This document shows positions 9,573 to 14,101 of a DNA stretch of 64,000 nt, piece after piece; position 1 is the first letter of the stretch; each line of letters starts with the position of its first letter. The notes beneath the pieces are model-generated. The model saw only the letters and a program-made list of their open reading frames with translations. It was not told the DNA's origin and searched no databases. Origin of the DNA: Nocardioides sp. Root682. Its GTDB lineage: Bacteria; Actinomycetota; Actinomycetes; Propionibacteriales; Nocardioidaceae. The position numbers and the translations under genes are program-made. Location: NCBI RefSeq assembly GCF_001427795.1, contig NZ_LMHJ01000001.1:1699664-1763663 (forward strand). The letters run 5' to 3'.

Positions 9573-10325
9573 ATGAACAGACCGATCGCCGTCGTGACCG
9601 GAGCCTCCAGCGGCATCGGCGCCGCCACCGCGCGCCACCTCGCCGACGCCGGCTTCGAGGTGATCTGCGCGGCGCGCCGGGCGGACCGGATCGAGGCGCT
9701 CGCTGTCGAGATCGGCGGTCGGGCCGTCGTCTGCGACGTGACCGACGAGTCCTCGGTGCAGGCGCTGGCGTCCACAGCGGGCCCGCGGGTCGACGTACTC
9801 GTGAACAACGCGGGGGGCGCGTTCGGCTCGGCTCCGGTCGCCGAGGGCGACGCCGACCAGTGGCGCCGGATGTACGACGTCAACGTGGTCGGCCTGATGC
9901 AGGTCACCCGGGCGCTGCTGCCCGCGCTGATCGCCGGCGGAGTGGCCAGCGGTGCCGGCACGATCATCAACGTCGGCTCGATCGCGGGGCGCGTGGCCTA
10001 CGAGGGCGGAGCCGGGTACACCGCCGCGAAGCACGGCACGAAGGTCGTGACCGAGACGCTGCGCCTGGAGCTGGTGACCCAACCGGTGCGGGTGTGCGAG
10101 GTCGCGCCGGGGATGGTGCGGACCGACGAGTTCGCGCTGGTGCGGTTCGACGGCGACCAGGCGAAGGCAGACGCGGTCTACGCCGGCGTGGCCGAGCCGT
10201 TGGTGGCCGACGACATCGCCGACGCGATCACCTGGGTCGCGACCCGCCCGCCCCACGTCAACATCGACGAGCTGGTCATCAAGCCACGGGCGCAGGCTGC
10301 TCCACACAAGGTGCATCGCGCCTGA
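9573..10325 (+). CDS. SDR family NAD(P)-dependent oxidoreductase (YdfG-like)
   Basis: A 250-aa classical short-chain dehydrogenase. The cofactor loop is TGASSGIGAA at the N-terminus. The NNAG motif lies near residue 79, the catalytic serine in NVGSIAG, and Y-x3-K in YTAAKHG. The C-terminal IDELVIKP resembles YdfG-type NADP-dependent 3-hydroxy acid or serine dehydrogenases, but the substrate is not certain. ATG 9573 is taken as the start, with ATG 9564 as an alternative. It converges with, and overlaps by 47 nt, the RiPP-locus nucleotidyltransferase, so it is probably unrelated to that locus. Confidence 0.88.
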   Translation: MNRPIAVVTGASSGIGAATARHLADAGFEVICAARRADRIEALAVEIGGRAVVCDVTDESSVQALASTAGPRVDVLVNNAGGAFGSAPVAEGDADQWRRMYDVNVVGLMQVTRALLPALIAGGVASGAGTIINVGSIAGRVAYEGGAGYTAAKHGTKVVTETLRLELVTQPVRVCEVAPGMVRTDEFALVRFDGDQAKADAVYAGVAEPLVADDIADAITWVATRPPHVNIDELVIKPRAQAAPHKVHRA

Positions 10326-11466
10326 CCCGTCCCAGCAGCGCCCGCACCAGGTTGCCGAACCGCAACCGCAGCGCCGACGGGACGCCCGTCCACGCCGTCC
10401 GGGAACGGATCGGCAGGGCCGCGTGAGCCGGGAGCGCCAGGACCACGACTGCCCGCCCCAGGTCCCCCGGGTTCCGGCTGGACGCCACGTGATGGCGGAA
10501 GTGTCCCCCGCTGCCGCCGGAGTACGTCGACGGGTTCGACACCGAGTGGTTCGCGCGCGCCCGGTCGAGCACTGCCGCCGGCACCCGGTCGAGCTGGGCG
10601 TGGATCCGCGGAGGCACGCCAACAGGGAGCCCGACCGTCTCGCGCGCAACCGCCAACGACACGGCCGCCGGCGCGCGCAGGCCTCCGTCGAACACTGCCG
10701 GATCGCGAGCGAGCCGACGGAGGTCGATCAAGGTGCGCATCCAGGTCCAGCCCTCACGGTGCCCGGCCAGGTGGCCCAGCGCGTCGCGGGGGCTGAGCGT
10801 CGCCACCTGCGCCCCACCGATCTCGACCAGCTCCCGGCGCGGCCACAGCTCGGCGAACTCAGGATGGGCGCCGCGCAACGGCTCGAACCGCCAGTGCAGG
10901 TCGACGTCGCCGCCCGCGCCGATGTACGTCAGCGCGCTGCCCCATCGGTTCACGTGCCCCCAGGCCCACATCTCGGGCTCGATCTGCCCGTACGCGTGCA
11001 GCGCCCAGCCCGCGGCCTTCAGCACCCGGTGGGCGTCGGCGACCTTCCCCGGCGCGACGAGCAGGTCGATGTCACCGGGTCCGCGGGCGTCGTACTGCCC
11101 CGTCGTCTGGACGGCGAGGGCCTGTCCCTTGAAGACGAGCACATCGATGCCGTGCTCGTCGAGGAGCCGGACGGCACGGACCGTCTCGAGGGTCTGGAGC
11201 ATCAGCCGCTGCTGGTTGCGCTGGCGCCAGGCGTCCATGACCGACGTGATCTCGCGGGGCAGTCCGAGGGCGTCGGCGTGTGTGCGCAGCACGTCGGAGA
11301 CCCGGTGCCGGCCGATCACCTCCAGGAGATCGTGAGGCGCAACCTCGCCGAGGGAGACAGGTTCCGCAGGCCGCCCTTCCTCCGCTCCCAGGGCACCCTT
11401 CACGAGCGTCCGGAGGACGCCGAGAGCGGCGGGGCTGGCGGTCATGACGTCGAGCGTGGCAGCCAC
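10279..11466 (-). CDS. Nucleotidyltransferase-family protein of the RiPP locus
   Basis: 395 aa, resembling the nucleotidyltransferase family (Pfam NTP_transf_5-like) often found beside lasso-peptide genes. The core shows LLDEHGIDVLVFKGQALA, then GPGDIDLLVAP with the D-x-D metal-binding pair, and GGDVDLHWR. A helical region SPRDALGHLAGHREGWTW follows. Members are thought to transfer a nucleotide or sugar-phosphate to a peptide or small molecule; the substrate here is unknown. GTG 11466 is used, with ATG 11445 as an alternative. It diverges from the 46-aa precursor gene, with a 144-nt shared control region. Confidence 0.75.
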   Translation of the reverse strand: MAATLDVMTASPAALGVLRTLVKGALGAEEGRPAEPVSLGEVAPHDLLEVIGRHRVSDVLRTHADALGLPREITSVMDAWRQRNQQRLMLQTLETVRAVRLLDEHGIDVLVFKGQALAVQTTGQYDARGPGDIDLLVAPGKVADAHRVLKAAGWALHAYGQIEPEMWAWGHVNRWGSALTYIGAGGDVDLHWRFEPLRGAHPEFAELWPRRELVEIGGAQVATLSPRDALGHLAGHREGWTWMRTLIDLRRLARDPAVFDGGLRAPAAVSLAVARETVGLPVGVPPRIHAQLDRVPAAVLDRARANHSVSNPSTYSGGSGGHFRHHVASSRNPGDLGRAVVVLALPAHAALPIRSRTAWTGVPSALRLRFGNLVRALLGRVRRDAPCVEQPAPVA

Positions 11467-11475
11467 GGGAACCCC

Positions 11476-11497
11476 GGACCATCGGAATCGATGGTCC
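11476..11497. promoter_or_regulatory. Inverted repeat in the RiPP divergent promoter
   Basis: GGACCATCG (11476-11484) and CGATGGTCC (11489-11497) are perfect 9-bp arms around GAAT, 10 nt upstream of the nucleotidyltransferase start and 114 nt upstream of the precursor. It could be a regulator operator. AT-rich GGTTAAAAAATG at about 11503-11513 follows. No regulator gene lies in the locus. Confidence 0.45.
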
Positions 11498-11610
11498 CGT
11501 CAGGTTAAAAAATGCGGGAACTCCGCACGAAGGCGTGTCCCCGGACGTCAAAGTTCTGTTCAACGCCTGACGGGGACCTCCCTCCCGCCGTCATGACAGA
11601 AGGAGCTCAC

Positions 11611-11751
11611 ATGAAGCTTGCCTACGAAACGCCGGTGCTCGAGGCCCTCAGCCTCAGCGCCACGCACGACGACATCGAGGTCGATGTCGACGCCGACGTC
11701 GACCCCGTGGCCGAGGTGGACGTCCACCTGGGCATCGGGCTCGGCAGCTGA
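11611..11751 (+). CDS. Acidic RiPP precursor peptide (lasso-like leader)
   Basis: A 46-aa peptide with a strong GAAGGAGC ribosome site 4 nt before ATG 11611. Residues 1-19 resemble a lasso leader: YETPVLEALSLSAT matches the Y-x2-P-x-L pattern recognised by PqqD-type RRE proteins, followed by a Thr at 18 as in the usual penultimate leader position. The remainder (about 20-46) is very acidic with alternating Asp/Glu and hydrophobic residues (EVDVDADVDPVAEVDV) and ends HLGIGLGS with a C-terminal serine. No Gly/Ala/Ser/Cys follows the likely cleavage site to start a lasso ring. No Cys is present. Followed by the B2 protease gene. Confidence 0.78.
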   Translation: MKLAYETPVLEALSLSATHDDIEVDVDADVDPVAEVDVHLGIGLGS

Positions 11752-11774
11752 ACACCCGCTCCGGACTGCTGCTC

Positions 11775-12197
11775 GTGGCGGCGTGGACCCTGCTGGGGCT
11801 CACCCGCCTGCTCACGGTGGTGCTGCCCTTCCGGGCGATCCGGCACCTCCTGGGTGAGCAACGGTCACCGAACGGAGCTGACCCGGCCTCGGGGCCGGTC
11901 CCCCCACCTGCCGACGCGCGCGACGAGAATCGCGCCCGGCAGATCGGCTGGGCCGTGCGGACTGCCGCCCACCGGACCCCCTGGCGATCGGACTGCTATC
12001 CACAGGCCCTCACCGCGCGCACCTTGCTGCGCGTGGCCCGCGTGCCCCACGCGGTGACCTTCGGCGTACGCCGTGACGACGCCGGCACCCTGAAGGCGCA
12101 TGCCTGGGTGAGTGCCGGGCGCGTCGCCGTGGCCGGTGGCACCGGCCAGTCCTGGGTCGGCGTCGGCAACTTCACCTGGTCCCCGCGCGGCCGCTGA
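11775..12197 (+). CDS. Lasso-peptide-type B2 leader protease (transglutaminase-like)
   Basis: A 140-aa cysteine protease expected to cut the leader from the precursor. The Transglut_core3 signature is clear: WRSDCYPQALTARTLLR gives nucleophile Cys74, and LKAHAWV gives His109. VPHAVTFGV lies between them and GRVAVAGG after. The N-terminal LTRLLTVVLPFRAIRHLLG is the usual B2 lead-in helix. GTG 11775 is the first standard start, 23 nt after the precursor stop. The frame is open further back, so a non-standard start overlapping that stop is possible. It requires the separate PqqD-like RRE (13115-13408) to recognise its substrate. Confidence 0.87.
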   Translation: MAAWTLLGLTRLLTVVLPFRAIRHLLGEQRSPNGADPASGPVPPPADARDENRARQIGWAVRTAAHRTPWRSDCYPQALTARTLLRVARVPHAVTFGVRRDDAGTLKAHAWVSAGRVAVAGGTGQSWVGVGNFTWSPRGR

Positions 12198-12210
12198 CAG
12201 GTCCGTGCCC

Positions 12211-13131
12211 ATGTACTCCGCCTACGGCCTCCGACTCTCCAGTGAGATCGCCCTGCCCGAGGTGGGCGGCTCCCTCGACGGGCCGGGAGCCGCCGACATC
12301 GAGATCACGCTGGGCACACCGGCCGGCCCGTCGGCATCCGCCACCCTGCTCCCTCTCGGCCTGTGGGTCGACGGCGACCGGATCGGCGTCGACGTCCCCG
12401 ACGTCGGCCGCTACGTCTGCGAGGGCGGCACCCGGATCGTCGTGCAGCCTGCTCCCGAGGTGGAGGCCGGAGTCCTCAAGCTCTTCCTGCTCGGTACGGC
12501 GCTCGGCGCGCTGATGGTGCAGCGCGGCCATCTCGTGCTGCACGGCAACGCCTTCCGCGTCGGCGACGCGTGCGCGGTGGTGGTCGGTCACTCCGGCGCG
12601 GGGAAGTCAACGCTCGCGGCCGAGATGCACCGCCGCGGACACGACATCCTCAGCGACGACGTCGTCCCGATCGATGCCGACGGCCGTGCTCTCCCCGGCT
12701 GGCCGCGCCTCAAGCTGTGGCAGGACGCGCTCGACCGGCTCGGCATCGACTCGAGCGGCTACGACCGGATCCGCGGGGCGCACGCGAAGTTCCACGTGCC
12801 CCTGGACCGGCCACCGCTCGACCCGCTGCCCGTGCGCTGGATCTACGTGCTCGACCGGCACCGCGGTCCGCTCACGATCACTCCGCTCACGGGAGCGGCG
12901 ATCTTCACCAGCCTGCACGAGCACAGCTACCGCAAGGAGATCCTGGTGGGCGCCCATCGGCAGACCCATCTGGCCCGGAGCGCGGCACTTGCCGCGACCG
13001 TGCGACCCGCGCGCCTCGACCGCCCCCGCGGCATGGACTCCGTCGTGGCCTCGGCCGACGCGATCCTCGCCGACATCGACCAGTCCCTCTCCGGGACCCC
13101 TGGGAAGGAACACCATGCGACGAGCCACTGA
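12211..13131 (+). CDS. HPr-kinase-like peptide kinase
   Basis: A 306-aa P-loop kinase of the HprK-like group found in tailoring lasso clusters such as paeninodin, where the homologue phosphorylates the precursor's C-terminal serine. Walker A is GHSGAGKST at residues 126-134, followed by ILSDDVVPID at about 146-155, the HprK-type acidic motif. The N-terminal 115 residues form the divergent sheet domain common to these proteins (starting MYSAYGLRLSSEIALPE). The precursor here does end in serine, which fits. It lies 13 nt after the B2 gene and overlaps the PqqD gene by 17 nt. Confidence 0.85.
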   Translation: MYSAYGLRLSSEIALPEVGGSLDGPGAADIEITLGTPAGPSASATLLPLGLWVDGDRIGVDVPDVGRYVCEGGTRIVVQPAPEVEAGVLKLFLLGTALGALMVQRGHLVLHGNAFRVGDACAVVVGHSGAGKSTLAAEMHRRGHDILSDDVVPIDADGRALPGWPRLKLWQDALDRLGIDSSGYDRIRGAHAKFHVPLDRPPLDPLPVRWIYVLDRHRGPLTITPLTGAAIFTSLHEHSYRKEILVGAHRQTHLARSAALAATVRPARLDRPRGMDSVVASADAILADIDQSLSGTPGKEHHATSH

Positions 13132-13408
13132 GACCCCTGCTGCGTCGGGCCGCTGGGTCCGCGACTCCGCCCTCCACGCCGTCGAGATGGACGCCGAATT
13201 CGTGATGATGGGCGTCGAGCAGGGCGAGTACTACGCGGTCAAGGGCGTCGCCGCAGCCCTGTGGCGCCACCTCGCCCAGCCGCACGACGTCAGCGAGCTG
13301 GCCACCCTCGTCTCCGAGGAGTACGACGTCAGTGCCGAGGCCTGCCGCGCCGACGTCGCGGCTTTCCTCGACCAGCTCGCGGCCAAGGGCATGGTCCGCG
13401 CGGTGTGA
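13115..13408 (+). CDS. PqqD-family RRE protein (B1-like)
   Basis: A 97-aa winged-helix RiPP recognition element that binds the precursor leader and presents it to the B2 protease and kinase. PqqD features are the N-terminal strands WVRDSALHAVEMDAEFVMM and GEYYAVKGVAAALWRHL, followed by a helical half (DVSELATLVSEEYDVS, AFLDQLAAKGMV). ATG 13115 has GGAAGGAA upstream and begins inside the kinase gene, so the two are coupled. It is the last gene of the run. No asparagine-synthetase-like cyclase follows; the next gene is convergent, 4 nt away. Confidence 0.87.
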   Translation: MRRATETPAASGRWVRDSALHAVEMDAEFVMMGVEQGEYYAVKGVAAALWRHLAQPHDVSELATLVSEEYDVSAEACRADVAAFLDQLAAKGMVRAV

Positions 13409-13411
13409 GCC

Positions 13412-14101
13412 TCAGGCGAGGGCGCGGTCCAGCGCGGCCTCGACGTGCAGCGAGGTGCACGGGAACACGGGGATCTCGGAATCGGCCTGGCGCACGAGCA
13501 GCTCCAGCTCGGAGCACCCCAGGATCACGCCGCCCGCGCCGGCGTCCCACAGCTCGCTGATCATCGCGACGACCGAGCGACGGGAGTCGTCGACGACCTT
13601 CCCATGGACCAGCTCGTCGTAGATGATCCGGTTGAGCTCGTCGTGGTGCGTCGGCTCCGGCACCAGCACGCCCAGGCCGTGGCTTGCGATGCGGTCGGTG
13701 AAGAAGGTGCGCGACATCGCGAACTTCGTGCCGAGCAGGGCCACCGTCTCGACGCCCTGCTCCTTGCACGCCTCGGCGACGACGTCGCCCAGGTGCAGCA
13801 GCGGGATGGAGACCGCGTCCTGGACCTGTTCGGCAACGCGGTGGAAGGTCGTCGTGCACAACATCAGGAAGTCGGCACCGGCGCGTTCGACCGAGATGGC
13901 GGCGTCACGCAGGATGGCCGCGACGCCATCCCAGTCCTCGGCCTCCTGGAGTGCGGTGACCTCGCCGAAATCGACCGATGTCATCGCTGTCCGTGCCGAG
14001 TGGAAGCCCCCGAGACGCTGCTCGACACCGCGATTGAGCGCCTCGTAGTAGGCCGCACTGCTCTCCCAGGACATGCCGCCGACGAGCCCGATGGTCTGCA
14101 T
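13412..14101 (-). CDS. Aspartate/glutamate racemase family protein (YgeA-like)
   Basis: A 229-aa cofactor-independent racemase fold. The N-terminal GLVGGMSWESSAAYYEALN is the family opening. The two catalytic cysteines are in FLMLCTTTFH (Cys about 82) and ILGCSELELL (Cys about 196). The first motif has CTTTFH where the family usually has CTNTxH, so substrate range may differ. It faces the RiPP operon with only 3 nt between stop codons. A role in that pathway is possible but unproven. It may instead provide D-amino acids for the cell wall. Confidence 0.85.
   Translation of the reverse strand: MQTIGLVGGMSWESSAAYYEALNRGVEQRLGGFHSARTAMTSVDFGEVTALQEAEDWDGVAAILRDAAISVERAGADFLMLCTTTFHRVAEQVQDAVSIPLLHLGDVVAEACKEQGVETVALLGTKFAMSRTFFTDRIASHGLGVLVPEPTHHDELNRIIYDELVHGKVVDDSRRSVVAMISELWDAGAGGVILGCSELELLVRQADSEIPVFPCTSLHVEAALDRALA

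Follow-up and report, generated by a model that had tools for sequence, protein, structure and literature searches.

A window of 64,000 nucleotides from Nocardioides sp. Root682 (contig NZ_LMHJ01000001.1, positions 1,699,664 to 1,763,663) carries a divergent locus of five genes spanning 3.1 kb, in which the gene of a PF14907 nucleotidyltransferase (NTP) on the reverse strand faces away from those of a precursor peptide (A), a B2-type leader peptidase, an HPrK-like kinase (K) and a PqqD-like recognition element (RRE, or B1) on the forward strand. We consider it likely that this is a locus for a ribosomally synthesized and post-translationally modified peptide (RiPP) that is related to the phospho-lasso pathways, has no gene for an Asn-synthetase-type cyclase and yields a linear peptide with a predicted phosphorylation of its C-terminal Ser. 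It is best read as derived from phospho-lasso pathways by loss of the cyclase. The reading is drawn from sequence, namely from the gene set, the absence of the Asn_synthase domain (PF00733), the conservation of the locus, the terminal Ser of the precursors, the active sites of the enzymes and ratios of nonsynonymous to synonymous substitution rates (dN/dS) well below 1. An earlier note on this DNA had described the five genes and suggested either a lasso peptide with its cyclase elsewhere or a linear peptide carrying phosphate and/or nucleotidyl groups. Open reading frames (ORFs) and matches to Pfam and NCBIfam profiles placed the genes where it had put them, with the identities it had given, and phosphorylation or nucleotidylation of the peptide is predicted from our analysis too.

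Conservation of the gene set

With the kinase as query, 196 genomes of the genus yielded 18 close orthologues (53-100% identity, our genome included) and 14 weaker matches. Seventeen of the 18 carriers, the window among them, have all five genes in the same order between mshA-SDR (short-chain dehydrogenase/reductase) and racemase-typA, and in the eighteenth (G124) the cassette is located elsewhere. A second scan covered 69 loci, 20 of which (L052-L070 and L092) hold the NTP, B2, kinase and RRE genes in the same layout; their hosts are Nocardioides, Pimelobacter, Marmoricola, Aeromicrobium and metagenome-assembled genomes (MAGs) named Nocardioidaceae or Propionibacteriales. As ten of these 20 loci repeat genomes of the genus set, the distinct carriers number 28, our own included, and all 28 loci have a homologous precursor. 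We divide them into group I (18 loci, mshA site) and group II (10 loci). Recurrence of the same gene set in 28 genomes is more than chance. At the level of the family, 31 of 294 genomes, in three of 26 genera, had a kinase match at E <=1e-30, and at the level of the class 3 of 394, all three within Nocardioidaceae. When the kinase alignment was used to search proteins, 1212 of the 7995 proteins scored were found at E <=1e-40, and most names among the 120 proteins listed are "hypothetical protein".

The earlier note had looked to relatives for conservation of the set without a cyclase, and this is what the 28 genomes have. It had also envisaged two observations that would speak against a cyclase-free pathway. 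A dedicated cyclase linked to the locus in close relatives was absent from all 27 relatives examined, and in place of broken or unconserved genes we found intact and conserved ones, one further genome (G081) holding a remnant.

Search for a cyclase gene

The window contains no cyclase gene, as the earlier note had said, and a search for PF00733 gave no match in the whole genome (eight contigs, rated 100% complete); the same search was positive in 11 of 14 control genomes. No cyclase lies at the locus in any of the 28 carriers, and 24 of them have no PF00733 match genome-wide (15 of the 18 in the genus set and nine of the ten further genomes). The match in G035 is QueC and that in G198 is marginal (3.6e-4), G042 has a 666-aa Asn-synthase-like ORF about 92 kb from the locus on the same contig, and the cyclase of G186 belongs to another, distinct lasso cluster, which has a kinase, B2, RRE and NTP of its own. 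Around L052-L070 and L092 no Asn-synthase-like ORF was found in the fetched stretches (up to 9 kb on each side, shorter at contig ends).

The search is sensitive to divergent cyclases of the genus, since it found them within 0.9 kb of ten of the 14 weaker kinase matches (E 5e-18 to 4e-10); the remaining four kinases are the decayed remnant of G081, a match whose contig is small (G165), and those of G046 and G135, both marginal. Outside the cyclase-free group, 36 of 49 scan loci had an Asn-synthase-like ORF in the fetched stretch, as did 14 of the 19 Pseudomonadota loci nearest in the kinase tree, four of the five without one being shortened stretches. Six such ORFs were scanned, and their best match was the lasso cyclase model NF033535, all below its cut-off. 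A Fisher test of cyclase absence in the genus (15/18 carriers against 85/178, p 0.005) is not relied on, being confounded by phylogeny.

The precursor peptides

For the window's precursor the predicted leader is MKLAYETPVLEALSLSATH and the predicted core DDIEVDVDADVDPVAEVDVHLGIGLGS, the cleavage site of this and the other precursors being placed by the Thr(-2) rule that holds for lasso leaders. The consensus leader of the 28 precursors is YxxPxLExLSLxATx. All 28 end in Ser, which in the window is the sole hydroxyl residue of the predicted core; position 3 of the predicted cores is Ser in none and Thr in one (L063). The predicted cores measure 14-30 residues, and Lys, Arg, Cys, Trp and Tyr are missing from every one of them. 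Group I cores, such as DIDIDIDITLGLGS, are mostly rich in Asp and Glu; a group II example is DIDIGLGIHIPFPPLGS.

The enzymes

Residues expected in the active sites are invariant in all 28 carriers: H111, K132, D149 and D150 in the kinase, C74 and H109 in B2, and K113, G114, D132, D134 and D189 (the KG and DxD residues among them) in NTP. The best profile matches of the kinase among solved structures are HPr kinases, and its AlphaFold model (mean predicted local distance difference test score, pLDDT, 88.4) has the PEPCK/HprK fold. The model of NTP (pLDDT 82.6) is similar to nucleotidyltransferases, LnuA and ANT(2'') among them, and has a weaker resemblance to FKRP, an enzyme that handles CDP-ribitol; its sequence search against solved structures returned a sole match, which we judged to be chance. 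The RRE matched the solved lasso-type RREs TbiB1, TfuB1, 9x90 and 9x8z in sequence (E 3e-6 to 9e-5); for B2, no match among solved structures came from a search by sequence.

Ranges of dN/dS over eight pairs each were 0.15-0.38 for the kinase, 0.20-0.43 for the RRE, 0.14-0.47 for B2 (two pairs being rough, with an upstream extension of the reading frame included) and 0.23-0.33 for NTP; three pairs of precursors gave 0.19-0.25, and the flanking SDR and racemase 0.05-0.11. In G657, the genome of L063, a kinase match is listed with an internal TGA, which by its coordinates is the ordinary stop codon that closes the reading frame.

History and export

In a kinase tree of 94 rows the 28 carriers form one clade (support 100/100) nested among kinases of Pseudomonadota, in which groups I (100/99) and II (98/95) are each monophyletic. 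Excluded from the trees were ten duplicate loci of the second scan, the second domains found in loci of either group, and pieces under the set lengths; L031, a duplicate of L051, was kept in the kinase tree. Most simply, the ancestor of this clade would have lost the cyclase once, possibly after transfer into the family. In group I, cassette distances correlate with MshA and TypA distances (Mantel r 0.80-0.84) to the degree that SDR distances do (0.81). Among 20 cassette-negative loci, picked from the 178 genomes of the genus without a close kinase, six have SDR and racemase matches 22-146 bp apart, and the others, apart from G081, have a wider gap, rearranged genes or no SDR found. The remnant in G081 (L181, 10198-10337) consists of decayed kinase fragments only, between racemase and mshA and without an SDR match.

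An ORF homologous to an ATP-binding cassette (ABC) exporter adjoins NTP in all ten group II loci, confirmed by Pfam in L069. Group I loci have no ABC exporter at the locus. In the nine group I genomes tested, ABC matches reach only about 26-33% identity, except in G186, where one of 44% lies inside the separate lasso cluster.

Proposed pathway and alternatives

In the pathway that we propose, the RRE would bind the YxxP leader and hand the precursor to the HPrK-like kinase, which would put one or more phosphates on the terminal Ser. The PF14907 enzyme would next add a cap to the phosphate, either a sugar, as has been reported of PsmN, or a nucleotidyl group, and B2 would cleave the leader after Ala-Thr-x to give the short peptide of 14-30 residues. 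The kinase step has precedents. According to one study, PadeK, ThcoK, SyanK and PsmK place phosphate on the Ser that ends lasso precursors, in the case of PadeK ahead of cyclisation, and the hexose on this Ser phosphate depends on PsmN (PMC9266682); in another, BsfB1 speeds up BsfK and helps B2 (PMC10368454). It appears that none of these, neither the phosphorylation of the C-terminal Ser, nor the addition of the hexose, nor the help given by B1 to kinase and B2, needs a ring, so that a linear phosphopeptide whose C-terminal Ser is capped is the likely product of the locus.

Several points weigh against this reading. Asp or Glu at core positions 7-9 is kept in 19 of the 28 precursors, including the window's, and five of the 28 begin with Gly; for the cores that keep the acid a lasso ring may remain compatible with the sequence. 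PF00733 has a match in 96 of the 196 genomes searched in the genus and none in the other 100, and the genome-wide absence of a cyclase is partly a trait of the lineage; several of the 28 carriers are MAGs or drafts, so that absence there is less certain. The B1 and B2 trees recover the 28 as a clade only at a Shimodaira-Hasegawa-like approximate likelihood ratio (SH-aLRT) of 93, and the NTP tree does not group them in a single clade (2 changes). Support for the capping step is weak, because no modification by the NTP transferase of the cluster for linear polyphosphorylated peptides (LPPs), a family of Bacillota, could be detected in the host used for its test, according to the report on them (PMC13381572).

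The latter report also bears on the possibility, in our view rather unlikely, that kinase and NTP act on a non-peptide target and that the product is a trimmed linear peptide or a signal. Deletion of lppN made no detectable change in the heterologous test of LPPs (PMC13381572), which would agree with such a target; however, the terminal Ser is invariant in 28 of 28 precursors and has no other hydroxyl residue beside it in the window's core, and the kinase gene overlaps that of the RRE by 17 bp. A true lasso peptide, with its cyclase elsewhere or too divergent for PF00733, is unlikely. It is favoured by the retained acids and Gly starts, by the ORF of G042 and by the cyclase in the second cluster of G186, but in nine of the 28 cores, eight of them in group II, the acid at 7-9 is missing and the usual lasso ring could not form, and the 24 carriers without PF00733 were searched in a manner that detects divergent cyclases of the genus beside ten distant kinases. 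We regard as quite unlikely a cyclisation by something other than an Asn-synthetase-type enzyme, for instance by B2 acting as a transpeptidase during leader cleavage. B2 has a transglutaminase fold (Transglut_core3, PF13471), is the sole acyl-enzyme candidate of the locus and would meet many Asp and Glu residues in group I cores; against this, no core offers a Lys, the Cys and His of B2 are the same as in the cyclase-adjacent B2 of L051, and we know of no B2 that acts as a cyclising transpeptidase. That the locus is a decayed lasso cluster, its cyclase gone and the rest being lost, is suggested by the fragments in G081 and by the six cassette-free loci with SDR close to racemase, but is highly improbable given active sites intact in 28/28, dN/dS of 0.14-0.47 in the computed pairs, precursor included, and one kinase clade across three genera of the family.

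Returning to the linear phosphopeptide, a more specific picture can be offered, if only tentatively. Nocardioidaceae may hold a separate, ring-less RiPP lineage that arose from the phospho-lasso pathway by a single loss of the cyclase, with B2 retained, and whose product is a short, beta-strand-like peptide that carries a capped phosphate at its C-terminus. The group I cassette would be inherited vertically between core genes, and as it lacks its own exporter the modified peptide would act in the cell or join the envelope, and would not be a secreted bacteriocin. With 28 sets of precursor and enzymes, and a window core that has a single possible phosphorylation site, the action of HPrK-like kinases and PF14907 enzymes on peptides becomes directly testable.

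Features of the locus and its flanks

The locus is closed on both sides by convergent genes, as the earlier note had it, SDR and Asp/Glu racemase both standing tail-to-tail with it (Table 1). We set aside the idea that the racemase acts on the Asp-rich core: it lies at all 20 of the cassette-negative loci read as well, and because of this we regard it as flank and not as part of the cassette.

Table 1. Features of the five-gene locus and the adjoining genes, in positions of the window.
Feature	Coordinates	Strand	Details
SDR gene	9573-10322	+	flank, tail-to-tail with the locus
Nucleotidyltransferase (NTP)	10282-11466	-	395 aa; PF14907 118 bits, E 6.8e-34
Divergent intergenic region	11467-11610		conserved GGTTAAA-type block (17 upstream regions aligned)
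Precursor peptide A	11611-11748	+	ATG at 11611; 46 aa; YETPVL; AGGAG ribosome site
B2-type Cys/His leader peptidase	11775-12194	+	NF033537 80.9 bits (cut-off 33); PF13471 84.3 bits
HPrK-like peptide kinase K	12211-13128	+	306 aa; PF07475 31.6 bits, E 1.4e-7, slightly below the Pfam cut-off of 33.3
PqqD-like discrete RRE (lasso B1 type)	13115-13405	+	97 aa; PF05402 72.9 bits
Asp/Glu racemase gene	13415-14101	-	flank, tail-to-tail with the locus

Upstream of the ribosome site of the precursor there is an inverted repeat, in the window with arms of 6 bp (11568-11573 and 11588-11593), which is a candidate operator or RNA hairpin. In group I it reads GACGGAG...CTCCGTC at 8 of 17 loci and AACGGAG...CTCCGTT in L036. 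By a simple scan the 7-bp repeat was the best arm pair in nine of these 17 loci, the window's best pair there being a different one. A palindrome near 11476-11499, upstream of the NTP gene, was dropped, as it is present only in the window and, in part, in L034.

Related loci elsewhere

Similar gene sets were seen in other lineages. In the haloarchaeon Natronococcus sp. A-GB7 (L109, 4781-11056) an ABC exporter, RRE, B2, three precursors with YEPP leaders and Gly-rich cores, an HPrK-like kinase and NTP lie together, and the locus looks cyclase-free, no Asn-synthase having turned up in a fetched stretch of 18.9 kb. Kinase matches occur in 12 of the 125 genomes in its family, this one counted. A Competibacteraceae MAG (L096, 613-5640) holds B2, a precursor that starts MKKPYVTPEV and ends GHSGS, kinase, RRE, an ABC ORF and NTP with no cyclase on the 11-kb stretch, and as B2 stands near the start of the stretch, a lost cyclase and one that was cut off look alike. 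In a Propionibacterium sp. MAG (L113, 8653-12435) kinase and RRE are adjacent, a weak NTP-like ORF follows 1 kb on, and neither B2 nor cyclase was detected. Within the genus, G186 has the cyclase-free cassette and a kinase-bearing lasso cluster in one genome (L047 and L051), a natural test of discrimination by RRE and leader.

Comparison with known systems

With lasso pathways in general the locus shares a B2 with Cys and His, a discrete RRE and a YxxP leader with Thr at the predicted -2 position. Of the kinase-bearing lasso clusters of the genus (for example G186 C76, locus L051), L051 also has B2, B1, kinase and NTP genes, but their cyclase lies within 0.9 kb and their kinases fall outside the clade of 28. 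Pathways of the paeninodin and pseudomycoidin type resemble it in A, B1, B2, the HPrK-like kinase, a Thr near the end of the leader and the C-terminal Ser, and that of pseudomycoidin in the PF14907-type enzyme as well. The locus differs from them in having no macrolactam cyclase and in the cores without an acid at 7-9, and from paeninodin also in the Tyr of the leader motif, where paeninodin RREs favour Trp. The NCBIfam pair HprK_rel_A/PqqD_rel_X (TIGR04352, TIGR04353) likewise joins HPrK-like to PqqD-like proteins, but the locus scores below the curated cut-offs (30.7 against 200 and 24.2 against 35). Among the best 15 to 30 papers listed per search of the open-access literature, none is on a cyclase-free actinobacterial version, most subscription papers and preprints being outside that scope. 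One description of a Nocardioides reports an antiSMASH "lassopeptide" region (PMC11261691). If our reading is true, a tool that gives this label to such a locus would predict the wrong product.

The closest counterpart is the LPPs, cyclase-free peptides for which a polyphosphorylated linear product was shown in May 2026 and which their authors call restricted to Bacillota (PMC13381572). Both systems have no cyclase, a YxxP leader, a discrete RRE, an HprK-like kinase and an NTP transferase, and the ABC exporter of group II recalls the MsbA-like pump of LPP clusters (PMC13381572). They differ in the peptidase, which is B2 here and the SipW-like LppS in LPPs; LppS is not at our locus, where five genes fill the stretch from SDR to racemase, the rest of the genome not having been searched for SipW homologues. 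The leader is YxxPxLExLSLxATx here and YxxPxVLxHQxIxFETxxS in LPPs, the predicted phosphorylation site is the C-terminal Ser here and Ser3 of the core there, and the hosts are Actinomycetota, group I of which has no exporter at the locus, as against Bacillota (PMC13381572). The cyclase-free linear reading of the earlier note is supported, but a "distinct RiPP class" of this sort has a precedent in the LPPs. By comparison of features, made without a joint tree, the Nocardioidaceae set is apparently apart from the LPPs of Bacillota, and the locus is a variant beside LPPs, not a wholly new class. What it adds is a second phylum in which a lasso toolkit without the class-defining enzyme is a stable gene set under selection.

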